64,000 bases of DNA from a virus: positions 1 through 64,000 of the IMG/VR virus record IMGVR_UViG_3300017917_002374; one strand, written 5' to 3'. The position numbers and the translations under genes are program-made. This document shows positions 26,135 through 45,646 of this stretch, piece by piece (the stretch's first letter is position 1; each line of letters opens with the position of its first letter). The notes below the pieces were generated by a model. It searched no databases. It was given only the letters and a program-made list of their open reading frames with translations, and was not told the origin of the DNA.

Positions 26135-26620
26135 ATGGCTAGACCAAATCCTATACGACGTATCATGCAATCCGCGCTGCCTAGTGTTACATATCAGCGA
26201 CAGAAACTTTTTAGGCCCTCTCCAAAAGATGTAAAATATGCGTATAAAATAATCAACAGGCATGTGTTTAACAATCAGCTGAAACTGCCACCTATCCAAC
26301 TGGGCGTGACCAGGGGCTATTGGGGCATGTGTATTGGGTTACACGAAGAAACTAGTCCTAACACTTTGTGCAGTCTAAAACTCAGCGACAAATACTTTTG
26401 TGTGCAATGGTTCATGAACACTCTGGCACACGAAATGGTACATCAATATCAATGGGACATCAATAGTGAATACAGACAGCAGCACGGACTGGAACCTTTG
26501 ATGAGCCACGGTCCTAGTTTTTTTGCCTGGCGTGATGTCATGGACTACTATGGACTGAGCTTGAAAACTGCACATGGACAGCGACGTTGGTTTGCACATC
26601 AAGATTTCAATAAGTGTTGA
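26135..26620 (+). CDS. SprT-like zinc metalloprotease
   Basis: 161 residues. HEMVH (HExxH) in NTLAHEMVHQYQWDI is the zinc site; GPSFFAWRD downstream gives the third-ligand region of SprT-like domains. The N-terminal part PSPKDVKYAYKIINRHVFNN matches the family. SprT/Spartan domains cleave DNA-protein cross-links in eukaryotes; the role in phages is unknown. Its stop overlaps the clpP promoter. Confidence 0.85.
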   Translation: MARPNPIRRIMQSALPSVTYQRQKLFRPSPKDVKYAYKIINRHVFNNQLKLPPIQLGVTRGYWGMCIGLHEETSPNTLCSLKLSDKYFCVQWFMNTLAHEMVHQYQWDINSEYRQQHGLEPLMSHGPSFFAWRDVMDYYGLSLKTAHGQRRWFAHQDFNKC

Positions 26621-26670: not shown

Positions 26671-27261
26671 ATGCCCCATTTTGTACCTACCGTATTAGAA
26701 AAAACCAGCAACGGCGAACGTGCGTATGATATTTACAGTCGCCTGCTTAAAGATCGTATTGTGATGCTGGACACAGATGTAAATGAACATTCAGCCAGCC
26801 TTGTGGTTAGCCAATTGTTGTTCCTAGAAAGTGAAAACCCTGATGCAGACATTCTTTTCTATATTAACAGCCCTGGTGGCGTGGTTACTGCTGGCATGGC
26901 TATCTATGATACTATGCAGTACATTAAACCTGACGTATCTACTATTGTAATGGGCCAGGCCTGCTCCATGGGCAGTTTGTTAGCACAAGCCGGCGCAGCA
27001 GGCAAACGCTATATTCTGCCCAATGCACGTCACATGATACACCAACCGTCAGGGGGTGCAGGTGGGCAAGCCACAGACATGGAAATTCAGGTGCGTGAGA
27101 TACTCAAAATGAAGCGTACACTTACAGAAATCTATGTCAAGCACAATAGTGCAGGCAAAGTGTATGACGAAATCCTAGCAGACATGGAACGTGATTTCTT
27201 TATGAGCGCACATGAAGCTGTGACGTATGGACTGGCAGATCAAGTGATTGAAACCAGATAA
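26671..27261 (+). CDS. clpP: ATP-dependent Clp protease proteolytic subunit ClpP
   Basis: 196 residues. Serine peptidase forming the double-heptamer chamber that degrades ClpX-unfolded proteins. Catalytic triad visible: Ser in [10 protein letters not shown], His in [11 protein letters not shown], Asp in [17 protein letters not shown]. Handle and substrate-cleft residues [20 protein letters not shown] are intact. Together with ClpX (12.9 kb, with IGF loop), ClpS and the tmRNA it gives the phage most of a degradation pathway. AGGAGT before the ATG. Confidence 0.97.
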
Positions 27262-27323: not shown

Positions 27324-28991
27324 ATGCGTCTAAACGAATTTGAATCACTGGATCTTGCTGTTAATTTTCATGACGAATTGAACCCAAAACTATGGGATGA
27401 CAATCGCATGCGTCCCGAAGTACGTGCAGCACTCATGCGTATCGCAGAAAATTTCAAAGATTTCTTGGGTGTTGATATCTATGATTTACTGGATATCACA
27501 GTAAGTGGTAGTAATGCAGCATATACCTATACTTCACACAGCGACATTGATCTACATCTTGTGGTCATGATTCCTGAAGCACACGAAACCGAACTCAAAG
27601 AACTGTTCACAGCTAAAAAATATCAGTACAATGATCAACACGATATCAAGGTACGTGGATTTGATGTTGAACTGTATGTGCAAGATGCAGAAGATCCGCA
27701 TCACAGCATGGGCATCTACAGTGTGCTCAACGATCGCTGGATCAAGCAGCCTAAAAAAGTACGGGCACAAATTGATGATATAGAAGTACAAGAAAAATAT
27801 CGCAGCATCAAACACAGAATCAATCGTGCTATTGTTAGCGACGACTACGACAGTGTGCAGCAGGTTTGGAACAGTGTGAAAAACATGCGCCAGACTGGTC
27901 TAGAACAAGGTGGTGAATTCAGCCCTGAAAATCTTGCATTCAAGATTCTGCGAGCAGACGGTACCTTGGAAAAACTCAAGCGTCATATGGGCAATCTCAA
28001 AGATGCCGAACTCAGCATACACGAAGCCACTAATGCTCCTAAAAGAAAAAGTGAAGTGTATCTAGACATGGATGGTGTGTTGGCAGATTTTTTTGCAGAG
28101 TATGCAAAACTGGCGGGCGTTCAAGGAACCTATAGAGACATACCTCCTGCCAAGACTGACCCTACCTTGAACAAAATGGTAGGTACTGATTTTTTTGCAC
28201 GATTGCCTAAGTTTGGATCCGCAGATACCTTGGTCAGCATGGTGACAAGTATATTTGGTCACTATAACATCTGCTCCAGTCCACTGCGCGGAGATCACGC
28301 CAACAGTGAAAAACAAAAACGTATTTGGATCGCAAAACATCTATCACCACAGCCTAAAGATATCATTATAACACCACGTAAAGAACGTCATGCAGTACAA
28401 GAGGATGGCACTCCTAATGTGTTGATTGATGACCGCGGTGACAACATTACCAAGTGGGAAGCAGCTGGCGGCGTGGGAATAAAATATCAAGCAGATGAAG
28501 ATGGTCTTGACACTGTGACTCGTGGATTAAAACGTGCTATGAAAATCATTGCAGGCAAAAAGCAGCTGGTGCCGCAAAAATTAAAAAGTCTAGATCGCAG
28601 CATGCCAGTGGCCACACAGGACGACCCCAAGCCTCTACAGGAAACCGTTAACCAATCAGAAGTGGTCAATTTTATTAAATTTGTTTATGACAGACTGCAT
28701 ATAGACGCTCCGCTACCACGCATCAAACTGCAACAGGAAAAAGAATCTCCAGATCAAAATCGCACTGGTTGGTATAACCCTGATACAAATGAAATGTGGG
28801 TGTACACAGGCAACAGAAATTTGATTGATATTCTACGCACGGTGGCTCACGAACTGGCACATCACAAACAAAGACTAGATGGTGACACTGCTGCCAACAC
28901 TGAACTGACAGACCTAGAAGGACAAGCAGATCAAGTGGCAGGCATAATTATGAAAATATATGTAAGAAAGCATCCGGAGATTATTGAATGA
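27324..28991 (+). CDS. Fusion: nucleotidyltransferase - HAD hydrolase - zinc metalloprotease, putative processed polyprotein
   Basis: 555 residues with three unrelated modules. Residues ~30-220: pol-beta-type nucleotidyltransferase, GSNAAYTYTSHSDIDLHLVV giving the GS...DxD signature. Residues ~243-415: HAD hydrolase, VYLDMDGVLADFF, with NVLIDDRGDN as motif IV. Residues ~445-555: metalloprotease-like, AHELAHHKQ (HExxH) and a downstream Glu in DLEGQADQVAG. The modules are separated by IHE/A (after residue 234) and LQE/T (after 440), both fitting the T4 prohead protease rule [LI]xE. First gene of the cluster with N-terminal MRLNEF. Domains are seen; processing is inferred. Confidence 0.8.
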   Translation: MRLNEFESLDLAVNFHDELNPKLWDDNRMRPEVRAALMRIAENFKDFLGVDIYDLLDITVSGSNAAYTYTSHSDIDLHLVVMIPEAHETELKELFTAKKYQYNDQHDIKVRGFDVELYVQDAEDPHHSMGIYSVLNDRWIKQPKKVRAQIDDIEVQEKYRSIKHRINRAIVSDDYDSVQQVWNSVKNMRQTGLEQGGEFSPENLAFKILRADGTLEKLKRHMGNLKDAELSIHEATNAPKRKSEVYLDMDGVLADFFAEYAKLAGVQGTYRDIPPAKTDPTLNKMVGTDFFARLPKFGSADTLVSMVTSIFGHYNICSSPLRGDHANSEKQKRIWIAKHLSPQPKDIIITPRKERHAVQEDGTPNVLIDDRGDNITKWEAAGGVGIKYQADEDGLDTVTRGLKRAMKIIAGKKQLVPQKLKSLDRSMPVATQDDPKPLQETVNQSEVVNFIKFVYDRLHIDAPLPRIKLQQEKESPDQNRTGWYNPDTNEMWVYTGNRNLIDILRTVAHELAHHKQRLDGDTAANTELTDLEGQADQVAGIIMKIYVRKHPEIIE

Positions 28992-30292
28992 GGTACCAAG
29001 ATTTTTTAGCGGAAGGCATACTGTTTGAATATGATAGAACAATCACTGCCAAGAACTATGGAGACAAGATTTTACTTGTAGCAGCCAAAGACCGTTGGCT
29101 GGTTGATCAAATTGCAGGACGCAATCGTCTAGGCATGAGCTTTCAAGAAGCAGTGAAAAAAGATCCTGCCATGATCATAGATGCTATTTTAGAAATACTA
29201 GAACGTGGCGATCCCACCCGCAATAAAGAATACACACAGGCCATTGCCAAGATGTATGCCAATGGTGGCATCATGGCAGAGGATGTGGTATCCACTCTAG
29301 CAGACTACCTGGCTAAGTTTGACAAGCTGAAACGCCGGAAGAAAATTCCGCCGCCACGTAACGACTTCAATCGTTACAAGAGCAAGGATGATTTCTATGA
29401 TGTGGTGGATGAATATCCTGACGAAGAAGCAGAAGACAAACCAGAAGAAAAAAAGAACGCTACGGAACTGTATCGTGATAGCAAACTGATTGTGACCATA
29501 CCCAATGATGTGGAAGCTGCCTGTTACTATGGACAGGGCACACGCTGGTGTACAGCGGGCAAGAACAATAACATGTTTGACTACTATACCAAGGGAGGCC
29601 GTCCACTGTATGTGATCATTCCACGACAGCAGGAGTACCCAGGTGAAAAGTATCAGTTTCACTTCGAAACCAAGCAGTTCATGAATGAACAGGATCGTCA
29701 GATTGGCGAAGACGGCATGCGCAAGCTGGTCAAGCGTTTTCCACAGTTGCCCAAGATCCTGCAGAAGCCTGCAGAGCAGTTCATGATTGCACCACTACTG
29801 TCGCAGGAATACAAGAACATCGTGATAGAAAGCACAGAAGAAGTTCAGAAGGCCACTGTGCAGTTGATCAATCAGTATGCTGACCGTATCATTGCATTTG
29901 GATTCAAGAGTTTGGATGGCTATGGTGTGCAATTGCCAGACGCAGCAAAACAGACCATTGCAGACAGCATGCGTGACTACTTGGCTGACTGTGTGAAAAA
30001 CATGGGCAGCTTTTGGCAGGAGATTACTGCCAAACCAGAACTGGCTCGTGATGAAGACAAGATTGAAAGCCTGCTGAGTGCCAACAGAAATCTACAGGCA
30101 GTGGCAGATAAAAGCGCAGCGGTGGACCAGCTGAAAGCAGCACTGGCACAGACCGGACAGAAGATTCACAAGGATGCAATGGCACACATTATTGAACTCA
30201 CAGTGCGTGATCCACTGTTCCGCTTCATGATGAAACAGGTGGCCAAACTGTACACCGCTAAACTACAGGAGCAGGGCCATGCGCTACAGTGA
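28988..30292 (+). CDS. WCTA-motif phage protein with capsid-targeting-like N-terminus
   Basis: 434 residues. Begins MRYQDFLAEG, strikingly like the capsid-targeting peptide of T4 internal proteins (MKTYQEFIAEA), with a potential cut LAE/G after residue 9. The centre carries GQGTRWCTAGKNNNMFDYYT then KGGRPLYVIIP, a motif I have seen in phage proteins but cannot assign a reaction to. The C-terminal 200 residues are helical. ATGA overlap with the upstream fusion and 14-base overlap with the next gene. Confidence 0.75.
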   Translation: MRYQDFLAEGILFEYDRTITAKNYGDKILLVAAKDRWLVDQIAGRNRLGMSFQEAVKKDPAMIIDAILEILERGDPTRNKEYTQAIAKMYANGGIMAEDVVSTLADYLAKFDKLKRRKKIPPPRNDFNRYKSKDDFYDVVDEYPDEEAEDKPEEKKNATELYRDSKLIVTIPNDVEAACYYGQGTRWCTAGKNNNMFDYYTKGGRPLYVIIPRQQEYPGEKYQFHFETKQFMNEQDRQIGEDGMRKLVKRFPQLPKILQKPAEQFMIAPLLSQEYKNIVIESTEEVQKATVQLINQYADRIIAFGFKSLDGYGVQLPDAAKQTIADSMRDYLADCVKNMGSFWQEITAKPELARDEDKIESLLSANRNLQAVADKSAAVDQLKAALAQTGQKIHKDAMAHIIELTVRDPLFRFMMKQVAKLYTAKLQEQGHALQ

Positions 30293-32141
30293 ACTGATTG
30301 AAAACACAGACAGCGACGATGATTTGTTTGCTAAACCATTGGCGGATAGAATTCGTGCTCGTTTGGCAGAGTTAGAAGATCAGGACTTTATGGAACCTGA
30401 GGACATGATTGACCAGGTGGCTGAGGAGTTCAATCTAGAAGTAGAACAAGTTTATGATCTACTGGATGACGAAGTATACGAAAACACAGATGACGATGAT
30501 CTGTTTGGCGGCAGTGATCGCGGGACGCCCTCTCCTGAGAAGGCAGTGGCCAAGTTCAAGATGTTTTTTCCTATAAACAAGCGTGTGAGCTGGAGTAAGA
30601 TGCATTTTGGAACCGTTGACCGCTTGTTTGGCTTCTCCACCGACTCACGTTTTCACGCAGGAGCCAGTTATGACAGACACAGCTACTGGGGCACACAGGC
30701 CTATACCAATCGCCAGACTGGCCTAGGCTTGCTGATCTATGAAGACAGTGGTCAAGGTACCTGGGCATATCTAGGCGCACAGAGTCGTGAGGATATGGCT
30801 CACATGATACAGCAGTTGATTGCAGCAGATCAGTTGGAAGATCCTGAGGCAGCAAAGCAACGTCGCCTGGCCAAACAACAAGGCCGTGCTGCTGCCGCTG
30901 AGAAAAAAGGCATTCGTGTGGGCGCCAAGATACGAGTACCCTACCAAGGACAAACTGCCACAGCAGAAGTGGTCAGCATTTCCAAGGCTGGTAAACTGAA
31001 CCTACGCATGATAGATGGACCAGATGCAGGACAACTGCACTCCTGGCAGCCCTCCGCACACAGCGTTAGAAAAGCAGATGTGCTAGGTGAGAATGATGAT
31101 GACGATGACGAGCTGTTTGGTGAGCCAAGATCCTACATGTTCATTGTGGCAGCTCCAGATGATGAAATAGTAGGAAACTACAAAAATATTGAAGATGCTC
31201 TAGACGCAGCACGATTTTTAGTAGATGATTATCTAGAGGCAGGCTATGAGGACACTGATGCTATTAGAGTTATGAAATACAAAACAGACAGTGATGGCAT
31301 GGTTGATTTTGACGAAGCAGGGGTCACAGTTGGCACTATCTATCTAGGCACAGGAGAACTGGCAGAAAATTTTGACGACGATGATATGTTCGCTACCCCC
31401 ACAATCAAGTTTGCTGACTTGTTCAACGAGTACGACGAGGATCAATTAATGGCACAAGGTTTTCAATATGGAGACCATCCTGAGCAGGACATTGAAATAC
31501 TCAACGACTATTTAGAAGACTATAAAGATTTCCGTGTGGTTGGTATCAGTGGCGGCGAGCATGACCTAGTGCTGCATCTAGACCGCAGCAGCAAACTAAG
31601 AGAAACAGACGATGATGAACTGTTTGGTTCACTAGCACTAACCGCTGCCAAGATTGGTAAACTGTTAGGTGCAGCAGGCATAACCAGTGGTGAAATCGTT
31701 GATCCTGAAAGCGTAAATCTAGCCTTGCACAGAATTGCGGCACTGGACAAGTATCGTATCCGGGCAGAAATCATGCAGCAGCAGTGGTTGAACATGGATG
31801 AAGACACTGCCTGGAACATGGTAGATGACATAGCCAATGTGGTATACGACATCAACGGTGACGGCTGGGAACCAGAAGACACCATCTACAACGAATCAGA
31901 TGATGAGCTGTTTGGTAAAAAGTGGCATGAGCGCATCAACATGAGCAGCATTGAGTTGGACGGCATAGATCGCAGTGACAGTCCTGACTTCTCAGATGCT
32001 CATGTGAGCTATGCAGAGTTTGACGACGGCAAGCCACTGAATAATGAACAGTTGGAATGGCTGACCAATGAGCTGGGCAGCACAGGTGAATTGCATGAGC
32101 TGGTCTGGGACAGTTTGCACGAGGGCCAGCATGCGTTATAA
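30279..32141 (+). CDS. Putative internal-head polyprotein with six DDDxLF modules (I)
   Basis: 620 acidic residues, start MRYSELIEN. Six acidic boxes of form D-D-D-[DE]-[LM]-F-[GA] follow [LIVY]xE-type sites: LIE/N (8), VYE/N (68), LGE/N (271), LAE/N (363), LRE/T (442), YNE/S (539). Between them are unrelated short segments of ~70-200 residues, one with a small beta-barrel look (GAKIRVPYQGQTATAEVVSI). This suggests a chain of small cargo proteins, each of which would carry a new acidic-LFG N-terminus if a gp21-like prohead protease cuts at the E. No enzyme motif is seen. Overlaps both neighbours. Confidence 0.7.
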   Translation: MRYSELIENTDSDDDLFAKPLADRIRARLAELEDQDFMEPEDMIDQVAEEFNLEVEQVYDLLDDEVYENTDDDDLFGGSDRGTPSPEKAVAKFKMFFPINKRVSWSKMHFGTVDRLFGFSTDSRFHAGASYDRHSYWGTQAYTNRQTGLGLLIYEDSGQGTWAYLGAQSREDMAHMIQQLIAADQLEDPEAAKQRRLAKQQGRAAAAEKKGIRVGAKIRVPYQGQTATAEVVSISKAGKLNLRMIDGPDAGQLHSWQPSAHSVRKADVLGENDDDDDELFGEPRSYMFIVAAPDDEIVGNYKNIEDALDAARFLVDDYLEAGYEDTDAIRVMKYKTDSDGMVDFDEAGVTVGTIYLGTGELAENFDDDDMFATPTIKFADLFNEYDEDQLMAQGFQYGDHPEQDIEILNDYLEDYKDFRVVGISGGEHDLVLHLDRSSKLRETDDDELFGSLALTAAKIGKLLGAAGITSGEIVDPESVNLALHRIAALDKYRIRAEIMQQQWLNMDEDTAWNMVDDIANVVYDINGDGWEPEDTIYNESDDELFGKKWHERINMSSIELDGIDRSDSPDFSDAHVSYAEFDDGKPLNNEQLEWLTNELGSTGELHELVWDSLHEGQHAL

Positions 32142-34479
32142 CGAGATCATTGAAAGTGCGGATGATGACGATGACCTGTTTGGTCGCGGTCTGCATCATC
32201 GTATCGCTGCGGCTCTACTGGCACAGGCCGAGGAAGACCAGCGTATCGCAGATGAAGAACGCGGACTAGGTGACCAGATTCATCGTAATGTGCAAAACGC
32301 AGATGAGTTTGAAGCACAAGCTAGAAACTATCGTTACATAGCAGACGCTTTTAATCAAAGCATGGCTCAGGGAGTTAAAGTTTATCGCAGTCTAGACCGC
32401 AGCTGGAAAGGTGCAGTGGATGATGTTGTGGACATTGAGCTTGACATGGACTTCCGCGACTATGTGAAACAGATTCCAGAAAGTGCGGATGACGATGACT
32501 TGTTCTCTACCAGTCCAAAGTTGGATCGCCGTCAAGAGCTGAAAGCCAAGGCCATTCGTCGCATAGAAAAGCGTGACGCACTGAACATACAGCCAGGCAC
32601 ACGACTCATGGTCAAATGGGACAATGGCAAATACTACAAAGGCAAAGTGGTCAGACTCACTCCCAGTGGCCGCGTGATAGCACAGGTAAAGTTTCACAAT
32701 GTGGGCTGGCCCTTGGAAAAGAACATCAGTCCACGTGACATCAAGCCTGAACACATCTTGAAAGAAACAGATGATGACATGTTTGCCAAGAACAGTCAGA
32801 TGAGCCAAGACATCAAAACCAAGCTAAAACAAATTGATGATCCTTATCTGCGCACTGTACGCAAGATTCGTGAGTTGGCAAAAACCAAATATGGTGCAAA
32901 AATTCGTGTGAGTGGTGCACCCAAGACATCGGCCCGCGGCAGAGCAACTGTTTGGGTGGGCGACTATGATGCAAATTATCAAATTCCAAAAACTACCCCT
33001 GAGGCCTATGCTGTAAAAAACGATTTAGAACAGATGGGATTTGAGTGTCGTTTTACAGACGCAGGTTGGCTCAGTGTCAAGGTTCCGCCAGTGTTCTCTG
33101 ATCTAATCAGCGAAGAAAGCGACGACGAGCTGTTTGGGCAAGAAGATGGCGCTCGTCTGGCACTGAAACTATTGAAACTGTTACGAGCAGCAGTGGCTCG
33201 CGATCCTCGTGGTGTGGGTGAAATGCTGAAACAGTACAGCAATGAAAACAGCACTCTGGCACAGAGAGTAGATTATACCTTGGATTACATGGCACAGGCC
33301 GTGGGCATGCCACGTGAGATATTTGACAAATACGCAGATGACTTTTTCATACTGCCATGGCCCACAGGTGTGGACATAAACCGTCCATGGCAGATCTGGG
33401 ATGCACAGGTGTTGGACCGAATCATTGAGACCATGCGACGAGTGGTTTATGGCCGGGACATGAATGAAAGTGATAATGACGATGACCTGTTCAGCCATAG
33501 TGTGCATGAAGAAGTGATATATCGTGTGGAAGAATATAAAAAAGGTCTTGAAAAACATCTAGAAGTAGTACAGCAGGCAGATCCTGAAGACGCAGAATAT
33601 CTTGAGGATGTGATCAATGATGTGAATCAAGTGTTGGCCAAATTGCAGAAAAATTGGATAGAAGGCATGGATGCACTGCTACAAGCATCAGATAGCGAGG
33701 ACTGGGCAGAAAATATCATGCACGAACTCAAGGCAGATAATATACCGTTGAACAGATACTACCGCGCACCTTGGCTGCGCGAAGACGCAGACGATGATGA
33801 ACTGTTTGGTGAAACTACCTTGGCAGATCGTGTGGCTGATTTAATCAAGCACAAGCAACGTGTACGCATTCTAGTACCTGGTGCCATGGGCTTTGTGCGA
33901 GCTGTATTTCATGGCAGCACTGCTATCAGTCGCAGCATGAAGAGCACTACACGCTACGCCTGGCCAGGACTGCACGGCGAACGAGCTAACGGCCTTGAGT
34001 TGGTACAAAATCCTGCCACACGCACCTGGGACATTGTAGAGCGAGACCAGGCTGTAAACATGCGTAAATACACAGAAGACATTGGTGACGATGAACTGTT
34101 TGGCAGCGGCTACAGTGCTGTGCAAAGACAGATCTATGAAACAGGCCGGCAAATGTTGCAAGCACTGAAAGACAGTTGGAAACAGGATTCTGTGCGCAGC
34201 GAATTTCAAACTTACATGGATGCCGACGATGGCGACGCTATGTTTGATCTTGTGCAGGATGTGACCAGAGTGCATGGTTGGCCAGCACTGGTAGTAGACA
34301 CTGTGATTCGTGAATACACTACCATGGAAGGACTCAACGACTTTGGCTGGATGCTGGAAGAAGGCAGCTTCAACGACCTAGAGGAAGCCTGGGAAAGATT
34401 TAGAACAGATAGAGAAATCAAAAACGAACCCTGGTTCCAAGCGGAAGCAGACAGATTTATGAAAAGAAAACTAAGATGA
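32131..34479 (+). CDS. Putative internal-head polyprotein with seven DDDxLF modules (II)
   Basis: 782 residues from ATG 32131 (an upstream ATG 32068 lies inside the previous gene in another frame; MRYNEIIES matches the sister proteins). Sites and boxes: IIE/S (8), IPE/S (117), LKE/T (212), ISE/E (328), MNE/S (446), LRE/D (551), YTE/D (649), each followed within 1-3 residues by an acidic run and LFG, LFS or MFA. Segments between boxes differ; one (about 150-205) is beta-rich with GTRLMVKWDNGKYYKGKVVR, Tudor/KOW-like. No catalytic motif recognised. Overlaps the previous gene by 11 bases and the next by 4. Confidence 0.7.
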   Translation: MRYNEIIESADDDDDLFGRGLHHRIAAALLAQAEEDQRIADEERGLGDQIHRNVQNADEFEAQARNYRYIADAFNQSMAQGVKVYRSLDRSWKGAVDDVVDIELDMDFRDYVKQIPESADDDDLFSTSPKLDRRQELKAKAIRRIEKRDALNIQPGTRLMVKWDNGKYYKGKVVRLTPSGRVIAQVKFHNVGWPLEKNISPRDIKPEHILKETDDDMFAKNSQMSQDIKTKLKQIDDPYLRTVRKIRELAKTKYGAKIRVSGAPKTSARGRATVWVGDYDANYQIPKTTPEAYAVKNDLEQMGFECRFTDAGWLSVKVPPVFSDLISEESDDELFGQEDGARLALKLLKLLRAAVARDPRGVGEMLKQYSNENSTLAQRVDYTLDYMAQAVGMPREIFDKYADDFFILPWPTGVDINRPWQIWDAQVLDRIIETMRRVVYGRDMNESDNDDDLFSHSVHEEVIYRVEEYKKGLEKHLEVVQQADPEDAEYLEDVINDVNQVLAKLQKNWIEGMDALLQASDSEDWAENIMHELKADNIPLNRYYRAPWLREDADDDELFGETTLADRVADLIKHKQRVRILVPGAMGFVRAVFHGSTAISRSMKSTTRYAWPGLHGERANGLELVQNPATRTWDIVERDQAVNMRKYTEDIGDDELFGSGYSAVQRQIYETGRQMLQALKDSWKQDSVRSEFQTYMDADDGDAMFDLVQDVTRVHGWPALVVDTVIREYTTMEGLNDFGWMLEEGSFNDLEEAWERFRTDREIKNEPWFQAEADRFMKRKLR

Positions 34480-36722
34480 AAAGCAAAGATTTCCTAAATG
34501 AAAAGTGGAGCCAGAAGTACAAGAAGAGCATCAACTGCTCTAACCCCAAAGGCTTCAGCCAACGTGCGCACTGTGCAGGCCGCAAGAAAAACGAAAGTGT
34601 GGAACTGGATGAAATTGATCGCAGAGGATTCCTCAAGGGCCTTGGTGCTGCTGCACTGGCAGGTGCAGGTGGCGCTGCCATGGCAGGAGATCTAGAAGGT
34701 CAGATAGGCCCACTGCCCATCATGGCTACTATCAAAGTGCAGATGCCAGACGGCACTGTGAAAACAAAAAAGATTGATCTTGGTCATGAGTACGACTACA
34801 GACTGGATGATGCCAAGAAAGAAATTGAACAGATCCTGGATCGCAAGGGCGTGAAGAACTATACCATTCACTTGGACAGATACAAGGACAATGAGGCATA
34901 TCTGGATCGTGAACAGATGAAGCCGCAGTCAAAGACTGACAAAAACGACTACATGGATCGTAAACCCTATCAGCCCAAAGGCGGCAGTGGCAGCTATGTG
35001 GACAACACACCTGCCCGGGCCAGCGGCAAACACAACTACATGGATCCTGCCAACTACGAAGAAAGTTTACAGGAATACGGCGATACTGCCCGAGGTCAAA
35101 AGCAGTTGACCCGGGTTCACAAACGTGCAGTTGATCGTCTAATCAAGGCAGATGACCAAAACATGTTAGAGCCAGATTATACCAAAAGAGATTTAAAAAC
35201 AGTAAGAAAGAATGCAGACACTGCTAACCGTGCTTGGGATAGATTCACAGATCTGGATTTAGATGAAGCATCAGTTTATAAAAAAGATCAAGACCTAAGC
35301 AGTATTCCTACTCAAGAACTTGAAGCATTTGTTAAAAAACATTGGGGTGGTGGTATTCCAACTTATGGCCAAGGCAAAAGTGTTCAACGAGCCATGCGAG
35401 AATTGCGCCGCAGACAAAAGCAAGGTGTGGCGGAAGGCTCTGCTGGAGCAAAATACAAAATAAAAAGCATTGGCAAAGACAAGAACGGTGATTACTACAT
35501 CAGCCCTAACACAGGCAAAAAAGTTTACAAGAATGCTAAAGTGGGTGATCACGAAACTCCACGCGGGGAAGTAAAACCTAAGGTGACGGAAAACAATGAC
35601 AGTGATGAAGAATTGTTTAGCGTGTCTCAAACGCCACCACGAACAGCACAGGCACTATACCATTGGAGCCGCATGGATCCCAACAGATACAGTTTTCGTG
35701 CCATAGCTGAATTTGCCTTGAGTAACAAGCTGACCTTAAAGCAGGCACTGGAAGTTACTTCAAGGTTTGACGAGTACAACGAACAGATGCAAGATGAATA
35801 TGGTGTTGATGATGATCAAATGAGTGATCTGTTTGGCGCATATGAAGAAGTGTGTGATGCATGGAACACTGATCCAACAGGCGATACCAGTACAAATGAC
35901 TCCTGGGAAAAACTACGAGAAGCAGATGCAGAACTAGCAGAACCACCTGAGCGTCCACGCAAAACCACAACAAAGACCAAGACCAAACCTGATATCAAAT
36001 TTGATATTCCGTTCCAGCAAGATCAAGATCGTCCTCTGGCCAAAACAGATCCACTGGATGACTTGAAAAAGAAAGCTGGACTAGGTGATGAGCCTAAGGT
36101 CAACATTAAGAAGGCCAAACAAAAGGATACCTTGAGCAAAACCGCAGGCATTGGCAGTGATGACATGGCAGACATGCTGAGTCGCATGCGTAACATTGAA
36201 ATAGATCGTGATCTAGAAGCCTATCCAGAGCCAGAACCACCAGAGCAGTTGCCATCAGTGGAAGTGAACACAGCCAATTTGCCAGCAGTGGCAGGGCAGG
36301 CATTACAAGCCGCAGGCGTGCAGAATCCAGATTTCCATCAAGTGGCTAACCTGCCAGGCAACATGGCAGACCAAATTCGCCAGCTGGGCAAGAGTCTGTT
36401 TGGCAGTCTAACCATGACACCTACCAAGCGTATTCACGTGGTGGCCAATCTAGGCGGACAAGGCCCTAACAGCTCAGCAGAAGTAAACGCAGTGGCCGGC
36501 TTCCTAAAAGACCACGGTAAAGATCTAGGCCCAGGCGACATTGACTTTGACAATGTCATGCCAGGCTACAAGGCACAAACACACATGTTCTCAGCAGCAG
36601 GCATTCGCTGGATGCTGGTAAAAGACTTTGCCGGACAGTACATCTACTGCTGGCCAGAAGAAGACAGCCATGATGCAGTGGATGCGATTGGCCAGGACAC
36701 GGACGTTAAAAGACTAAAATGA
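34476..36722 (+). CDS. Putative internal-head polyprotein with buried Tat-like signal
   Basis: 748 residues, start MKSKDFLNE. Seen in order: Cys/basic motif INCSNPKGFSQRAHCAGRKK (19-38); LDE/I site (44-46) followed by DRRGFLKGLGAAALAGAGG, a textbook twin-arginine signal; LQE/Y (200); LDE/A (264); VAE/G (320); VTE/N with DSDEELFS (372-382); LRE/A (482); Pro/Lys/Asp-rich linker; folded C-terminal domain (about 600-748) with RIHVVANLGGQGPNSSAEVN and YIYCWPEEDSHDAVDAI. If cut at LDE, the Tat-like sequence becomes N-terminal. ATGA overlaps on both sides. Functions unknown. Confidence 0.7.
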   Translation: MKSKDFLNEKWSQKYKKSINCSNPKGFSQRAHCAGRKKNESVELDEIDRRGFLKGLGAAALAGAGGAAMAGDLEGQIGPLPIMATIKVQMPDGTVKTKKIDLGHEYDYRLDDAKKEIEQILDRKGVKNYTIHLDRYKDNEAYLDREQMKPQSKTDKNDYMDRKPYQPKGGSGSYVDNTPARASGKHNYMDPANYEESLQEYGDTARGQKQLTRVHKRAVDRLIKADDQNMLEPDYTKRDLKTVRKNADTANRAWDRFTDLDLDEASVYKKDQDLSSIPTQELEAFVKKHWGGGIPTYGQGKSVQRAMRELRRRQKQGVAEGSAGAKYKIKSIGKDKNGDYYISPNTGKKVYKNAKVGDHETPRGEVKPKVTENNDSDEELFSVSQTPPRTAQALYHWSRMDPNRYSFRAIAEFALSNKLTLKQALEVTSRFDEYNEQMQDEYGVDDDQMSDLFGAYEEVCDAWNTDPTGDTSTNDSWEKLREADAELAEPPERPRKTTTKTKTKPDIKFDIPFQQDQDRPLAKTDPLDDLKKKAGLGDEPKVNIKKAKQKDTLSKTAGIGSDDMADMLSRMRNIEIDRDLEAYPEPEPPEQLPSVEVNTANLPAVAGQALQAAGVQNPDFHQVANLPGNMADQIRQLGKSLFGSLTMTPTKRIHVVANLGGQGPNSSAEVNAVAGFLKDHGKDLGPGDIDFDNVMPGYKAQTHMFSAAGIRWMLVKDFAGQYIYCWPEEDSHDAVDAIGQDTDVKRLK

Positions 36723-38998
36723 GATACAACGAACTGATTGAAAACGATGATGAGGACATGTTTGGCGCCAGCGAACGTGTGGATCGTGACCTGCGTCGCG
36801 CTACCTTCAATGCCAATATACCAGAAATGATTCGTCGTGTGCAGCAGGGCCTACTGGCCAGTGCAGATCGTCAGGCGCGAGCCATGGCCATGGAGTTTGT
36901 TAGAGAAGCCAACTATCTTGAAAAAGAAGAAGTGTATGGACTGGCTCGCGAGATATTCACACACGATGCACCGCAGCATCTGCATCAGGCCTTTGCTATT
37001 GTGAGTGAGGATCCTGCCATCATTGCAGATGAAGATATGCTGAGTGACGTCTTGATGACCAACAACATATTCACCAACATACGCAAGGACAGCGATCTGT
37101 GGATCTATGCAACAGAAATGATAGAAGATTTTGCTGAAGGTGACGAGGAACTGGAATATCACCTGGGCATGGAAATAGAAGGCACAGTGGGCAATCTAAT
37201 AGTACGGCTCATGCAAGACGCATTTGCCAATGTGCGAGCACTGGGTGAGAATAGCAAGCCAGGTGTGCCGCAACCAGGGCCAAGTTCTGGGGCTCCTAAG
37301 AAATTTGGCTCTGATGCTAAAATACAAACTCGCCAGATGACGGTAAATGATATTATATCATCTGTGCCTGGTGTTCCCTATTACAACAATGTGGTGGATG
37401 ATTGGGACGCCAAAGATTACAGTTGGGGCGTGACCAAAAAGGTCATAGAGTACGCAACCTACTTGAAGGATCATCCAGAAAGTCTGGCACAGTTACCGCC
37501 AGCAATAGTGTTGAATGGCAAGTTTGAAGATGGTGCCCACAGGGTATCTGCCATATGGTTGCTGCAACAAAGAATGGATCCTAAAAATCCCTTATGGAAA
37601 CGTGCCAAATTAAATGTTCAGTTTGTTGAGCAAGGTGTCACAGAAGCCACAGACGACGAACTGTTCAGCAAATCACGTGAGCGTCCTGTGAATCGTTTTA
37701 CCATTTATGTTAATAATAAACCACTGCGCACCATGATAGATCTGGAGCAGGCGGCAGGTGTGGCAGAGGACTTGATAAACCAAGAAACCCGGCGAGTGAA
37801 TGTGCAGGTGGTCAACGCCGTTGATGGTGAAATACTCTGGAGTGGCGGCACTGACCGCATGGGCAAATGGTATGGTGCTTATGCAGCTTATCTTGAAGAA
37901 ACAGAAGATGATGACGACTTGTTCAGCAATCGCCCCAACGGCAAAGTAATAGCACATGATCTAGAACTGTGGCTGCGTCGCAGACAGTCAGGCAGTCGTC
38001 GTCCGCTCAGCAGCTATTCTGCAGATGCCATAACGGAAATTATAGCAGCGTTTAATAAAAGTTTTGCAGCAGGTGTGCAGGCCTGGGACGTGGCGCCAAT
38101 CATTGCAGATCTAAAATACGACATTCGCGAGTACATTGGCAGCAGTCAGCACATTGATCTTGCTGACCATGTGCAAGAACTCAATGAAGCTCCTCTAGCA
38201 GACTACGAGCCCATGGGTGACTTTGAAAAGCCAGGCCCCTTTCGTGGCGCAGATAAGAAATTAATTCCTCATCCTACCAACAAGCTCAAGACCGCACGTT
38301 TCTTTGAACAAACACCCTATGACTTTAGACTGTTCTTCAGCAACATTCCTGGCACCGGTCGTTACAGCGAATACGGTCCAATGGAACCACGGGTCATACA
38401 AGAGATATTCAAGGATGCTGCTGAACAGATTCTAGCAGGATCAGAAAATGCCATTACAGTGGTGTTTGTGGGCAACAAAGGTGACAGCAAGGTCATGCTC
38501 ACACCCTGGATGATGGCGCATAGAATTGGACATGCTGTGCAAGCCGGCACAAGATTAGCAGGTGGACGCGGCGCCTGGCGCGAAGCAGAAAATCATTTCT
38601 TCCGTGGCATCAATCAATTGCTCAAAGACTTCTATGGCAAGAGCAGCAACAATCGTTACGACGGTGAAGCCAACTGGGCCATGAGTCAAGAATATGCAGC
38701 ACTGTTCAATGCCATTGGCACACAGCGCAGTAGCCGCAAAGGTGAGATCAAAAGACCATACGAATTTCTGTATGAATTGTTTGCACAGTATCTGGGCACA
38801 GGACGGATTGAGCTCAATCCACTGCCACAAAAACAATCCTATGGTCGCAAGGTGTTTGGTCGCAGCAGTCAAAGTCTACGCATGACACCTGGCGCAGAAG
38901 AGGAATCAAAATACACAACTGAAGTCTTAGCACGTGACATGGAAATCATGTTCAGCGATGTGCTGAGTGAACTGGTTGGGAAAGTGTTGGTGATGTGA
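36719..38998 (+). CDS. Putative internal-head polyprotein with ParB-like module
   Basis: 759 residues, start MRYNELIENDDEDMFGA. Candidate cuts: LIE/N (8), LGE/N (177), VTE/A (309), LEE/T (394), LNE/A (490), three of them followed by acidic-LF/MF boxes. Residues ~205-300 look like a ParB/sulfiredoxin-type domain (LPPAIVLNGKFEDGAHRVSA with DGxHR). The last ~270 residues form a separate domain containing WMMAHRIGHAVQ, a possible metal site, preceded by GTGRYSEYGPMEP. Same N-terminal signal as its neighbours. Confidence 0.7.
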   Translation: MRYNELIENDDEDMFGASERVDRDLRRATFNANIPEMIRRVQQGLLASADRQARAMAMEFVREANYLEKEEVYGLAREIFTHDAPQHLHQAFAIVSEDPAIIADEDMLSDVLMTNNIFTNIRKDSDLWIYATEMIEDFAEGDEELEYHLGMEIEGTVGNLIVRLMQDAFANVRALGENSKPGVPQPGPSSGAPKKFGSDAKIQTRQMTVNDIISSVPGVPYYNNVVDDWDAKDYSWGVTKKVIEYATYLKDHPESLAQLPPAIVLNGKFEDGAHRVSAIWLLQQRMDPKNPLWKRAKLNVQFVEQGVTEATDDELFSKSRERPVNRFTIYVNNKPLRTMIDLEQAAGVAEDLINQETRRVNVQVVNAVDGEILWSGGTDRMGKWYGAYAAYLEETEDDDDLFSNRPNGKVIAHDLELWLRRRQSGSRRPLSSYSADAITEIIAAFNKSFAAGVQAWDVAPIIADLKYDIREYIGSSQHIDLADHVQELNEAPLADYEPMGDFEKPGPFRGADKKLIPHPTNKLKTARFFEQTPYDFRLFFSNIPGTGRYSEYGPMEPRVIQEIFKDAAEQILAGSENAITVVFVGNKGDSKVMLTPWMMAHRIGHAVQAGTRLAGGRGAWREAENHFFRGINQLLKDFYGKSSNNRYDGEANWAMSQEYAALFNAIGTQRSSRKGEIKRPYEFLYELFAQYLGTGRIELNPLPQKQSYGRKVFGRSSQSLRMTPGAEEESKYTTEVLARDMEIMFSDVLSELVGKVLVM

Positions 38999-39258
38999 TG
39001 CTCAAACTATTGGTTCTCAGCGTGGCACTGAATGCGGCAGAATTGCCATATAGAGAGTTGGAAAAGTACTACTGGGACTGCGATACCCTGTTCATGAAAG
39101 GTGAACTGGGCGGGCAGGACACCTGGAGTTGTCTGGCTGTCACTGACGAGTTCCAAACCTATTTTGACAGCAAAGAAGATTTCATGATCTATTGGCACGA
39201 ACACAGAATGCAACAGTGGCAGAGTCGTGGTTATTACCCTAAGGCAGAGATATACTAA
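38998..39258 (+). CDS. Small secreted or anchored protein
   Basis: 86 residues, TGATG overlap with the upstream polyprotein. N-terminus MLKLLVLSVALNAAELPYRE looks like a short signal peptide; two Cys in WDCDTLF and WSCLAV. It lacks the MRY-type start of its neighbours. Function unknown. Confidence 0.6.
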   Translation: MLKLLVLSVALNAAELPYRELEKYYWDCDTLFMKGELGGQDTWSCLAVTDEFQTYFDSKEDFMIYWHEHRMQQWQSRGYYPKAEIY

Positions 39259-39259
39259 A

Positions 39260-39985
39260 ATGAGATACCACGAAATAGTAGCAAAAGATTCACCTGCTGA
39301 GGATAGGCATCCTAATGATCGTCCATATGGACCAGAAGCCAAACCTACCATGCCCAAGGGCACAGTTAGAGTGGATGTCAGCGACGTGTATGATTGGTAC
39401 AAGCTGGGCATGAACATCAGTGATCTTAAAAAAGCCAACAAGAGTCAGTTTGGTAAAGGTCCTCCTAGCACCATAGTTTCTTTTGGTGACGAAAACACTG
39501 AACACAAGTATATCAAGGATCTTGAAAATCTTGGACTTACGACCACTGACATAGATCCTGTTGATCCCAATCAGCCCCGAGGCATGCCGCGTCAGAAAGT
39601 TGATCCCACATTCAATGTAGATGAAAACTTTGCTGATGGCAAAGTAAAAGGCAAGAGTCGTCCGGGCCGTGTGAAACGTGCAGGCGCAAGTTGCAACGGG
39701 TCAGTAACTGATCTACGAGCTCGTGCCAAGAATGCTAGCGGTGAAAAGGCAAAAATGTATCACTGGTGTGCAAACATGAAAAGTGGTCGTAAGAAAGCCA
39801 ATGAAGCCAGCCCCACAGGACTAGAGTTTAAAGGTTACCCATGCACCAAGGACTGTTCAGGACATCAAGCCGGGCATGATTGGGCAGAGCGTTGGGGTAT
39901 TGAAAATCCAGATTCTTGTCCTTACAGCAACAACAGTTTCTGGGAGGGCTGTCTAGCTCGCACAGACGACTTTCAAGATGAGTAA
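39260..39985 (+). CDS. Cys-rich protein with capsid-targeting-like N-terminus
   Basis: 241 residues from ATG 39260, MRYHEIVAKD. A potential cut VDE/N at 122 precedes a basic stretch NFADGKVKGKSRPGRVKRAG and a module ASCNGSVTDLRARAKNASGE / MYHWCANMKSGRKK. The last 50 residues have GYPCTKDCSGHQAGHDWAER then SCPYSNNSFWEGC, a Cys/His pattern that could bind zinc. Basic middle suggests DNA contact in the capsid. Confidence 0.7.
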   Translation: MRYHEIVAKDSPAEDRHPNDRPYGPEAKPTMPKGTVRVDVSDVYDWYKLGMNISDLKKANKSQFGKGPPSTIVSFGDENTEHKYIKDLENLGLTTTDIDPVDPNQPRGMPRQKVDPTFNVDENFADGKVKGKSRPGRVKRAGASCNGSVTDLRARAKNASGEKAKMYHWCANMKSGRKKANEASPTGLEFKGYPCTKDCSGHQAGHDWAERWGIENPDSCPYSNNSFWEGCLARTDDFQDE

Positions 39986-39993
39986 ATAAGCAT

Positions 39994-41349
39994 ATGAAAA
40001 TTACAGAAATTACCAAAGGTCGCACATTAGGCGGATTCCCAGTCCAAGTGTTAGACATACAAAACAGCGAAGTAGACGAAAATCAATATCGCCGCGAGTT
40101 TAAACGCAACGAGCTAGAACATGAGCTAGGACACGAAACAAACAACTATTCCGTTAGTATTAATGGTAAAAGTTGGAAAGTGTTTGCGAGCAAAGCACAT
40201 GCCGAAGCAGTGGCTCGCAGTGTACAAATGAAAAATCCTACCAAAAAAGTAGGTGTGCATGAGACTGGTGAATCAGTCTCAGAAGCACTCAAGCTGAACG
40301 CTCCGCAGCGTCGCATGAGTAGAGATGAGTTACAAGGCTATGCTGATCGTATTAAAACAGGTACTAAAACCAAACAAGATAAATTTGCACCAATTATTCA
40401 CGGGAGTAATATCAAGGCAATCACGCAGAGCGACAATCCTGATGACAAATGGGATCTGGATGATCTAGCGGCGCAGATTACAAAACGTCCTTCTAAAATA
40501 CTTGGCACCAATGCCAAAATGGAAAAAAGCCGTACAGAAGGCGAGATTGTGTATGACCTTACGCTACCAGCACTTTCCGGCATAGTGGTGGATGAAAGTA
40601 ACGGCGACTTTGTGGAAATCACAACCTGCCCAGGTGCAGGTGAATGCCAATTGTATTGTTATGCTCGCAAGGGCGGATATGTGATGTTTCCTGCCAGCTC
40701 CATGAGTGCGGCACAGGCCTTGAACTTCTTGGTTAATGATCCTGAGGGATACATGGCCATGGTGAATCGCGAAGTTAAAGCACTCAAAGGCAAAACAGAC
40801 AAGCATGGGATTAGACTGGTAGTACGTTGGCACGATGCAGGCGACTTCTTCAGCAAAGAATATTTAGATCTAGCCTATAAGGTAGCAGAAGCCAATCCTG
40901 ATGTGAAGTTTTATGCTTATACCAAGATGGGCGAAGTGGCAGTAGGAAACAAGCCGGCCAACTTTATTGTGAACTTCAGCACAGGTGCCAAGAGTCGTGA
41001 AGTGAAAAAAGTTACCTTACACAAACAAGCAGGCAACATTGTTAAGGACGCCATCACTGTGCCTAAGGACATGTTCCGCAACCTGTTTGTAACAGATGCC
41101 AAAGGCAAGTATGTGAAGGATGAAAAAGGTCGTACACAGGTGCGTGGCGAAGCGGAATGGAATCAATTCAAACAGCAGTTGGGCGCCAAGTATGACATTG
41201 ATCCAGACACCATTATTACATATGACCAAATGCTAAAGATTCCAGAAGGGCCTACGCCCAAGTGGCATGTGGTTATTTTCCCTGCAGGGCATGGCGATCG
41301 TGCTGCAAACAGACTGGACGTGATCAACAGTTTCTTAATGTTTCATTAA
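39994..41349 (+). CDS. GP88-like Cys-motif protein, end of the polyprotein cluster
   Basis: 451 residues. Starts MKITEITKG. A possible cut VSE/A at about residue 94-97 separates a ~95-residue lead from a domain with VEITTCPGAGECQLYCYARK and VVRWHDAGDFFSKEYLDLAY, which resembles the phage 'gene product 88' family (C-x5-C-x3-CYA). The function of that family is not established to my knowledge. GTAAATAA before the start, strong terminator after. Confidence 0.75.
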   Translation: MKITEITKGRTLGGFPVQVLDIQNSEVDENQYRREFKRNELEHELGHETNNYSVSINGKSWKVFASKAHAEAVARSVQMKNPTKKVGVHETGESVSEALKLNAPQRRMSRDELQGYADRIKTGTKTKQDKFAPIIHGSNIKAITQSDNPDDKWDLDDLAAQITKRPSKILGTNAKMEKSRTEGEIVYDLTLPALSGIVVDESNGDFVEITTCPGAGECQLYCYARKGGYVMFPASSMSAAQALNFLVNDPEGYMAMVNREVKALKGKTDKHGIRLVVRWHDAGDFFSKEYLDLAYKVAEANPDVKFYAYTKMGEVAVGNKPANFIVNFSTGAKSREVKKVTLHKQAGNIVKDAITVPKDMFRNLFVTDAKGKYVKDEKGRTQVRGEAEWNQFKQQLGAKYDIDPDTIITYDQMLKIPEGPTPKWHVVIFPAGHGDRAANRLDVINSFLMFH

Positions 41350-43471: not shown

Positions 43472-45646
43472 TTGATTCTCAATAACGCACCGCAGCACGA
43501 AGCTGTTCTGTCTAACGTAGGCGAGATTGGCGAGTTCCGTATTCGTAACTCAGCCAAGGCATTTTCCATTCTTTCGTCAGGACTTTACGCTAACAAAATT
43601 CGTGCAATTATCCGCGAACTATCCTGTAATGCTGTGGACAGTCATGTGGCTGCTGGTCGCAGTGATGTGCCTTTTGATGTGCATCTACCCAACAACCTGG
43701 ACCCTACCTTTCGCATCCGTGACTATGGCACTGGCCTATCTCACGACCAGGTGTTGAACATCTACACCACCTACTTTGAGTCAACCAAGACCGAGAGCAA
43801 TCAGTTTATTGGTGCGCTGGGTCTTGGTAGCAAAAGTCCTTTTTCTTACACCGATAACTTTACTGTTACCGCTATCAAGGACGGCACTCGCAATGTATAT
43901 TCGGCTTTTATCAACGGCGAAGGCGTGCCTTCTGTTGCACTCATGCACAGTGAGGCCAGTACGGAATCAAACGGTGTAGAAGTACAATTTGCTGTCACAG
44001 ATCGTTGGGACTTTGACAAGTTTTATGACGAAGCACGACAGGTGTACACCTATTTTGCTCTGCGCCCTAATGTGTTAGGTGGCGATCGCGAGTTCAAGTT
44101 TCGCGATGTAGAATACAAAGATCGCAACATCATTCCTGGTGTACACTATGTGGGTCGCGGTGCCAGCCGGGCAATAATGGGCAATATTGCCTATCCTATT
44201 GACATGCCCAATGCAGACACCAACCTTGGCGAACTGCATCGGCTGTTGGGCTGCGGTCTAGAAATGCACTTTGACATTGGCGAACTGGACTTCCAGGCGT
44301 CGCGTGAGGGTCTTTCTTATATCCCTAGCACCATTGAAGCAATCAAGCAAAAACTGATTGCTCTTAATGCTCAGTTGGCAGTGCATCTAGAAATGGAAGC
44401 CAGTGCTATCACCAATGACTGGGAAAAGGTCTACTTCCTGCAGAAAAAGGTGCATGAAGATCTCTGGGCAGGTGCCACTCGTGCCTATATCACAGCCAAG
44501 CAACCTCCCATGATGGATTACACTAACCTGCACTATGTTCGTGCTCAGGCACCAAAGATCAGCTTGAAAGAACTGGCCTCACGACACAATATCTCTATTC
44601 TGGCCTTTAACAAGACTCGTCACAGTGTTACCTGCCACGAGATCAAACCGCACAAGGATTTCACTGATCGTGCGCTGAGCCAGTACGAAGAATCTTGGCA
44701 GTTCAGTGTGGATGCTGGCACCATCTTTGTCAAGAATGATCTCAAGGTAGGTGCACTGACTCGTGCCAAGTACCATTGGCGTCATGCTGCCAGCAAAGGC
44801 GTTAAACTGCCCAGCGAAGGTTACAGTCATAATGTGTATGTGCTAAGTCCTGCTACCAAGGGTCATGCCATGGACACTGTGGGTTTCTTTGCTGCTCTCA
44901 ACATGCCACCTGAGAACCAGATTGTTAAGGCCAGTGACCTGATTGAAAAAGAACGCAAGGTCAGCTCGGGCAATCGCGCCAAGGATGTGCGCATTGTACG
45001 TCTGGAACGCAAGGATTATGGTCGTCGTGGCTATGAAAATCTAGTATGGGGCGAAGCGGGTCGTGCAGATCAATACGATACAAGCAAGAACTATTATTAT
45101 ATTCCGTTGAGTGGATACACTGCTATTGACTGCAAGATGGACCCAAAAACTCTGCAGGACAAAATGGCCAATAGTGGTATTCCTGCACTGGCTGTGGATG
45201 TGTATGGTGTACGAAAAGGTGACATTGAATTTATTCGTACTCAGAAGAACTGGATCCCGTTGGAGACTCATGTGAGTGCGGTGCTCAACAATCTCAGCGC
45301 CAAAGATCTGGGTAATTTGGCCTTGAATGAAATTGACAATGGCGCCCTGTTTCGTTATAATAAGACCATAGCGCACAACATCACCAATCGTAACAGTGCC
45401 TATCTTGCATTGATTAGTAAATTTGAAAATCTCAGCAAGGTTCGCTACAGCAAGCATGCATTGGAGTATTTGTTTAAAACCTATGCGCCCGGTGTGGGTG
45501 TTCAGCCCACCATTGACGCATTGGTAGCGGAACTGGATGCTGTGAAACGTCGTTATCCGCTGCTGGATTCAATTCGTGATTACTCCATTCCTGAATTGGC
45601 AGTGGCACAGTATATTAACTTGATTGACAACTCGAAAGGCAACTGA
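43472..45646 (+). CDS. rIIA: RIIA-like protein (GHKL ATPase fold)
   Basis: 724 residues, same size as T4 RIIA (725). Start is TTG 43472, preceded by AAGGAG at 6 bases; no better ATG exists nearby. The ATP-binding half matches T4: LYANKIRAIIRELSCNAVDS, FRIRDYGTGLSHDQVL (DxGxG) and IGALGLGSKSPFSYTDNFTV. RIIA with RIIB is membrane-associated and counters the lambda Rex exclusion system in T4; the general role is unresolved. Cotranscribed with rIIB, 2 bases apart. Confidence 0.92.
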   Translation: MILNNAPQHEAVLSNVGEIGEFRIRNSAKAFSILSSGLYANKIRAIIRELSCNAVDSHVAAGRSDVPFDVHLPNNLDPTFRIRDYGTGLSHDQVLNIYTTYFESTKTESNQFIGALGLGSKSPFSYTDNFTVTAIKDGTRNVYSAFINGEGVPSVALMHSEASTESNGVEVQFAVTDRWDFDKFYDEARQVYTYFALRPNVLGGDREFKFRDVEYKDRNIIPGVHYVGRGASRAIMGNIAYPIDMPNADTNLGELHRLLGCGLEMHFDIGELDFQASREGLSYIPSTIEAIKQKLIALNAQLAVHLEMEASAITNDWEKVYFLQKKVHEDLWAGATRAYITAKQPPMMDYTNLHYVRAQAPKISLKELASRHNISILAFNKTRHSVTCHEIKPHKDFTDRALSQYEESWQFSVDAGTIFVKNDLKVGALTRAKYHWRHAASKGVKLPSEGYSHNVYVLSPATKGHAMDTVGFFAALNMPPENQIVKASDLIEKERKVSSGNRAKDVRIVRLERKDYGRRGYENLVWGEAGRADQYDTSKNYYYIPLSGYTAIDCKMDPKTLQDKMANSGIPALAVDVYGVRKGDIEFIRTQKNWIPLETHVSAVLNNLSAKDLGNLALNEIDNGALFRYNKTIAHNITNRNSAYLALISKFENLSKVRYSKHALEYLFKTYAPGVGVQPTIDALVAELDAVKRRYPLLDSIRDYSIPELAVAQYINLIDNSKGN

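Follow-up and report, generated by a model that had tools for sequence, protein, structure and literature searches.

Candidate internal-head polyproteins with predicted prohead-protease sites at their module junctions in a T4-type jumbo phage

A bank of consecutive genes in the genome of a T4-type jumbo phage very probably encodes cleavable internal-head polyproteins, which would be docked in the prohead by an N-terminal targeting peptide (CTS), cut by the prohead protease gp21 and delivered as cargo that is probably ejected early in infection. CTS-like starts, the presence of protease and substrates in one genome, a cleavage logo at the module junctions and the shuffling of modules at these junctions are evident from the sequence. 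The window, i.e. the whole stretch of DNA that was analysed, comprises 64,000 nucleotides (genome positions 1-64,000) of IMG/VR virus record IMGVR_UViG_3300017917_002374, which has 354,959 bases. An initial annotation of the window had proposed that the chains are packed into the prohead and cut at their borders by the prohead protease, and this proposal passed every sequence-level test (head genes, shuffling and logo).

Results

Eight collinear chains

Positions 27324-41349 of the window hold eight chains, all on the + strand and collinear head to tail, with mostly short overlaps of start and stop. The N-termini quoted in the initial annotation for consecutive genes were all found as ORF starts on this strand (A 27324, B 28988, C 30279, D 32131, E 34476, F 36719, H 39260, I 39994). 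The gap between F and H is filled by an 87-aa ORF (38995-39258) that has no N-terminal peptide. In the list below, ^ denotes a predicted cut.

27324..28991, + strand: chain A, 555 aa; weak CTS MRLNEF; three domains
28988..30292, + strand: chain B, 434 aa; CTS MRYQDFLAE^G, conserved 'GTRWCTAG' domain, helical C-terminal region
30279..32141, + strand: chain C, 620 aa; CTS MRYSELIE^N; module ends at residues 68, 271, 363, 442 and 539; predicted cuts at about 30302, 30482, 31091, 31367, 31604 and 31895
32131..34479, + strand: chain D, 782 aa; CTS MRYNEIIE^S; seven modules, each 95-133 aa long, the second Tudor-like; predicted cuts at about 32154, 32481, 32766, 33114, 33468, 33783 and 34077
34476..36722, + strand: chain E, 748 aa; CTS MKSKDFLNE^KWSQKYKKSINC..., then QGVAE^G, VTE^NNDSDEELFS and a 376-aa C-terminal domain
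36719..38998, + strand: chain F, 759 aa; CTS MRYNELIE^N; cuts after residues 177, 309, 394 and 490, predicted at about 37249, 37645, 37900 and 38188
39260..39985, + strand: chain H, 241 aa; starts with MRYHEIVAK, which has no cut site; basic C-terminal module
39994..41349, + strand: chain I, 451 aa; partial CTS MKITE^I, then VDE^N, VHE^T and a GP88-family domain

About 33 mature pieces are predicted from the whole bank, in agreement with the initial estimate of about 30 small proteins. Chain A consists of an NTase-like domain (residues 1-234), IHE^A, an NT5C (5'-deoxyribonucleotidase) domain (235-440), LQE^T and an HExxH metallopeptidase-like domain (441-555), the last of which weakly matches the phrog_87 metallo-protease (4e-4). 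A Pfam search gave no significant peptidase match in the other bank chains. An alternative upstream start of the chain D ORF at 32068 was rejected, as it is not where the CTS begins. AlphaFold2 models built from 4-6 sequences were poor overall (pLDDT 55 and 48) with usable parts, in which junctions 117, 212 and 328 of chain D appear as low-confidence linkers flanking two better-predicted modules; module 2 resembles a Tudor fold (Foldseek probability 1.0, but E 0.06). The first module of chain E also occurs in cyanophages. In chain H, the C-terminal module begins at VDE^NFADG (predicted cut at about 39625) and runs to GKSRPG, and the GP88-family domain of chain I matches PF17338 (E 2e-31). Many modules of chains C and D are acidic (pI 4-5). 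Chains C and F had no tblastn match in annotated phages, chain C none in a scan against viral contigs, and chain B none in a sequence search of the PDB. The T4 late promoter TATAAATA is absent above the bank and occurs three times in the window, which is no excess.

The bank is immediately preceded by a ClpP-like gene (window 26671-27261), 5' of which lies a gene for a protein that looks by eye like an SprT-like HExxH protein (26135-26620); both are retained in two relatives, L002 and L013. A large ORF at 43472-45646 has, again by eye, the look of a GHKL ATPase (rIIA-like) and is conserved 3' of the bank in L002.

N-terminal targeting peptides

Most of the eight chains have CTS-like starts resembling that of T4. 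The T4-like targeting peptide claimed for the series stood for chains B, C, D, E and F, which carry [LIV]xE at residues 8-9, and only partially for the others: chains A (MRLNE^F) and I (MKITE^I) have a shortened peptide that lacks the canonical CTS cut, and chain H has no glutamate at the cut position. CTS-like proteins are also encoded elsewhere in the genome, at 265198, 273609, 277290 and 343763. The one at 277290 starts with MKSLKEYIAE^SEF, near the peptide of T4 itself, and the N-terminus of that at 273609 resembles a PA5oct protein which has no clear cut site.

A second bank of three CTS-like chains lies at 116136-119912 of the same genome; it has the junctions QGVAE^G and LAE^KKDACY, and one of its chains contains a cytidylyltransferase-like domain. 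A ClpA/B-like ATPase gene (110495-112786) is located shortly 5' of this bank, and such a gene likewise precedes the chains of L017, another relative.

Under a strict CTS rule applied to the ORFs of seven genome stretches, 4/10 bank genes and 7/174 others qualified; this count dropped overlapping ORFs, including chain C, and is therefore not relied on. Among module-bearing ORFs, 102/188 had a CTS-like start as compared with 317/1125 other ORFs, a high background (28%).

A T4-type head cluster encodes the likely protease

At 235-239 kb the genome carries a T4-type head cluster consisting of a gp67/68-like protein (start MNKYEKLIE^Y), the gp21 protease (PF03420, 3.8e-28), a gp22-like scaffold and gp23 (PF07068, 1.9e-101). 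The initial annotation had called for a search for a gp21-like protease and a scaffold whose own sites follow the same rule, and had regarded the lack of a prohead protease as fatal to its reading. Protease, scaffold and gp23 are all in the genome, and the N-arm of gp23 ends in a T4-like cut site of the same kind (YLAE^SATAG). The gp22-like protein, named from position and composition, has 26 [LIV]xE sites. The closest major capsid proteins are those of T4-type jumbo phages, namely Phosso, Vibrio 2.275.O, PA5oct, Erwinia SNUABM, BF and CBB phages.

Cleavage-type sites coincide with a repeated junction motif

The bank contains 76 [LIV]xE sites in 4590 aa (1.66 per 100 aa), and the frequency in other gene products from this genome (37,644 aa) is 1.14 per 100 aa. 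For [LIV]xE^[NSTA] the values are 0.68 and 0.31 per 100 aa, respectively, and for the control [LIV]xD[NSTA] 0.33 and 0.36. Since [LIV]xE alone is a weak signal that occurs roughly once per 60-90 residues, coincidence with a second motif was chosen as the test. At 17 junctions in chains C-F, [LIVMY]xE^[NSTADE] is followed after a few residues by a D/E run and [LM]F[GSA] ('DDxLF[GSA]'). These include junctions straight after the CTS, in MRYSELIE^NTDSDDDLF, MRYNEIIE^SADDDDDLF and MRYNELIE^NDDEDMF. In four related banks, [LIVMFY]xE precedes all of the 43 DDxLF motifs (43/43). With [LIVM] alone, 39 are preceded, against 6.7 expected at random places, the search window being the same. The residue after the cut is mostly S, N, A or T, and Y stands at P3 in two DDxLF junctions.

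The sites had been said to lie exactly at domain borders. The junction sites bear this out; taking all [LIV]xE sites of the bank, however, some half or more fall within modules, where they must be shielded by the fold. Serial DDxLF junctions were sought in phages outside this lineage and not found there. Standing after each predicted cut, the motif may act as an additional docking element, or the mature N-terminus may carry it as a signal.

Modules are exchanged at the sites

The comparison of related phages suggested in the initial annotation placed borders of module exchange at [LIVM]xE more often than expected. In the IMG/VR relatives of the bank (L002/L003, L013/L014 and L017) gene order is largely conserved, and modules have been acquired, dropped or swapped at the junctions. 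Modules of chain C are missing or exchanged in L002, L013 and L017; in L002, another module stands after residue 177 of the chain F counterpart, and the domains of chain A are encoded by two genes, both with their own N-terminal peptide. The chain I homologs of L002 and L013 diverge over the first 90 residues. Comparing chains in different contexts, 34 of 56 non-redundant internal homology starts were located at [LIVM]xE (10.9 expected, p<=0.0005), and the controls [LIV]xD and [LIV]xK remained at chance level. One and the same module is internal in L013 (LAE^NMDH) and adjacent to the CTS in L017 (MRLHDFLNLSE^NMDH), and in L223 the NFADG module of chain H directly follows the CTS (MRAKEFITE^NFADG).

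Three basic modules recover the same logo

As an independent test, we took three small basic modules from this genome as baits and examined the best 80 loci of each. The KVYV module (from the protein at 277290) was found in at least 598 viral contigs, the DACY module (from 118653-119912 in the second bank) in at least 539 and the NFADG module in at least 591. In 60 distinct sequences upstream of KVYV, P1 was E in 93% and P3 was L/I/V/M in 83%, while P2 and the positions from P4 onwards varied. Upstream of NFADG, 61 distinct, unrelated sequences had E at P1 in 100% and L/I/V/M at P3 in 54/61 (89%; binomial p about 2e-26, background 0.24), with the other positions varied. For DACY, the site lay exactly two residues ahead of the anchor in 46/67. 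The predicted cleavage logo upstream of the bait modules is the L/I-X-E rule of T4 gp21.

In a set made up of 169 bait-module chains and the banks, 371 of the 760 homology starts fell at [LIVM]xE (154.9 expected, z 20). The controls [LIVM]xD (z 0.7) and [LIVM]xQ (z below 1) were not enriched, and E without a hydrophobic P3 was also somewhat enriched (z 7); these z values are descriptive, given the relatedness of the sequences and the preponderance of bait modules in the set. The chain-terminal position was occupied by KVYV in 49/49 and by NFADG in 47/53 cases, and a basic, perhaps DNA-binding, C-terminal module thus seems to belong to the usual plan. Among 17 large contigs with bait modules, gp23 was found in 9 and gp21 in the same 9; in the 8 with neither, the head cluster may be missing, or these contigs may have another affiliation. 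Taken together, the putative design is broader than the 14-kb bank: a second bank is present in the genome, and the plan recurs widely among T4-type phages.

Cargo domains and cultured relatives

Chains of other phages carry Cu/Zn superoxide dismutase, poly(A) polymerase, NT5C, NUDIX and GNAT domains, and also GH19 with LysM, dCMP deaminase and amidoligase; in those chains whose sequence was inspected, [LIVM]xE lies between the domains. Several unrelated effector domains per chain occur in chain A and in relatives (Sod_Cu, NUDIX, GNAT, PolyA_pol, NT5C). Two CTS-headed chains of uncultured phages with Sod_Cu (L233:679-3555, E 5e-44; L261:1267-3183, E 3e-46) are possibly virion-borne.

The virion presence of one chain homolog is supported by annotation: EST35_0205 of PA5oct, a homolog of chain B (28% identity) that starts with MKLFEVFTLYE^D, is recorded as 'structural protein' with ESI-MS/MS, and its processing is not given in that record. 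Salicola phage SCTP-2 (L020, 9349-23190) has a row of paralogs of the chain B 'KWCTA' domain with CTS-like starts. A gp21 gene is present in PA5oct, S-SM2 and SCTP-2.

Discussion

Proposed mechanism

Docking in the core, the cutting itself, retention in the head, ejection and the functions of the cargo are what we infer. The N-terminal CTS would dock each chain in the gp22/gp67 core of the prohead. Once active in the closed prohead, gp21 would strip the CTS and cut exposed [LIVMY]xE sites in linkers, which would free about 33 small proteins, mostly of 5-20 kDa. The freed pieces would remain in the head with the DNA and, by analogy with T4 IPI and other IPs and with Alt, probably be ejected into the host early in infection. 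Small pieces could pass the portal, and an intact 80-kDa chain probably could not; the small modules suit a portal of about 30 Å, a size mentioned for folded IPI in the cited part of PMC9026906. By this route a single CTS would suffice to load numerous cargo domains, all in the same quantity. New cargo could be added by inserting any coding module supplied with an [LIVM]xE site, which would account for the fast shuffling. The description of the chains as 'self-processing' is probably wrong: the cutting is more likely to be done in trans by gp21, although the metallopeptidase-like domain of chain A could contribute to processing.

Alternative explanations

In a different account, that domain does most of the processing: the chains would belong to the polyvalent proteins of Iyer et al. 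(2017), and the delivered metallopeptidase at the chain A C-terminus would cleave them, in place of gp21, in the virion or in the new host. Chain A does combine an HExxH domain with NTase and nucleotidase domains, and embedded metallopeptidases that free domains are proposed in the cited part of PMC5512222. However, a peptidase-like domain is found in one chain only, whereas the gp21-rule logo stands at the junctions of all multi-module chains; it also occurs in unrelated phages, and those bearing gp23 hold gp21 too. We consider processing mainly by the metallopeptidase improbable. Equally doubtful is that the chains are packaged by their CTS and lose only this peptide, the internal sites being linkers in a long flexible protein. 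The motif is loose, with many sites within modules, and for T4 Alt processing is limited to the two termini, according to the cited part of PMC9026906. Against this, conservation upstream of recurrent modules is confined to P1 and P3, which indicates a protease logo and not a linker, and an identical site is used right after the CTS and at internal borders.

The repeated junction might also be a relic of recombination or duplication at the DNA level that has no role in the protein, and the junctions are indeed the places of module shuffling. This notion is largely refuted and retains hardly any credibility: the DDxLF codons differ synonymously between junctions, which places the conservation at the protein level, and the [LIVM]xE logo persists where neither DDxLF nor a DNA repeat is present. 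Cutting of CTS-docked chains by gp21 remains our preferred reading.

Relation to known systems

The T4 core proteins gp22 and gp67 offer a precedent for one precursor with many LxE sites that are cut by gp21, and some of the resulting peptides are retained in the head. The difference is that the scaffold gets destroyed, whereas the bank chains would consist of folded cargo modules. The internal proteins (IPs) of T4 are basic, unlike the many acidic modules of chains C and D, and a shared DDxLF motif and extensive shuffling distinguish the chains from the IPs and Alt. The likeness to IPI, IPII, IPIII and Alt (PMC9026906, PMC3012670) lies in an N-terminal peptide of ~10 residues, the L/I-X-E^ cut and small domains; in addition, the chains share their genome with T4-type head genes. 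As far as these sources describe them, the IPs and Alt have one cargo per precursor, whereas in the bank as many as seven modules follow a single CTS. For T4, the cited part of PMC9026906 covers the CTS, the L/I-X-E rule, the portal of about 30 Å and the ejection of IPs and Alt, and suggests that the CTS may be a route by which T4-like phages bring various proteins into capsids.

Polyvalent proteins, likened to viral polyproteins in PMC5512222, are also multi-domain (2-15 domains), and those of phages are predicted to be packaged and proteolytically freed. As portrayed in the cited part of that paper, they differ in that an embedded metallopeptidase frees the domains, in having neither a CTS nor a prohead-protease logo, and in their domain repertoires. 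The inner-body and ejection proteins of phiKZ and SPN3US likewise involve jumbo phages and ejected proteins, and the gp21-related gp175 and gp245 cut head proteins after S/A-X-E; in the cited parts of PMC10052503 and PMC5694885, it is mainly N-terminal propeptides that are removed, with one mature product per precursor.

A ~14-kb bank of multi-module precursors had been put forward as new. We found no description of CTS-headed multi-module chains cut by a prohead protease in the literature searched, which covered few subscription papers, and novelty is unproven; the design itself is far wider than the bank.

Implications

On balance, we favour the view that the chains represent a general platform, by which T4-type phages of many waters would load CTS-headed polyproteins, made up of enzymes and of basic peptides that possibly bind DNA, for gp21 to dice within the capsid. 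[LIVM]xE would serve as a universal module adapter, and in the present lineage the mature pieces would share an N-terminal DDxLF tag that has a separate role. If this is true, many 'hypothetical' proteins of aquatic T4-type phages are cargo precursors whose products can be read by a simple rule, and the prohead protease is a polyprotein processor, as in RNA viruses. A way would then open to listing the injected proteins of cultured phages. The platform may also explain how repair, redox or counter-defence enzymes are delivered before any phage gene is expressed.
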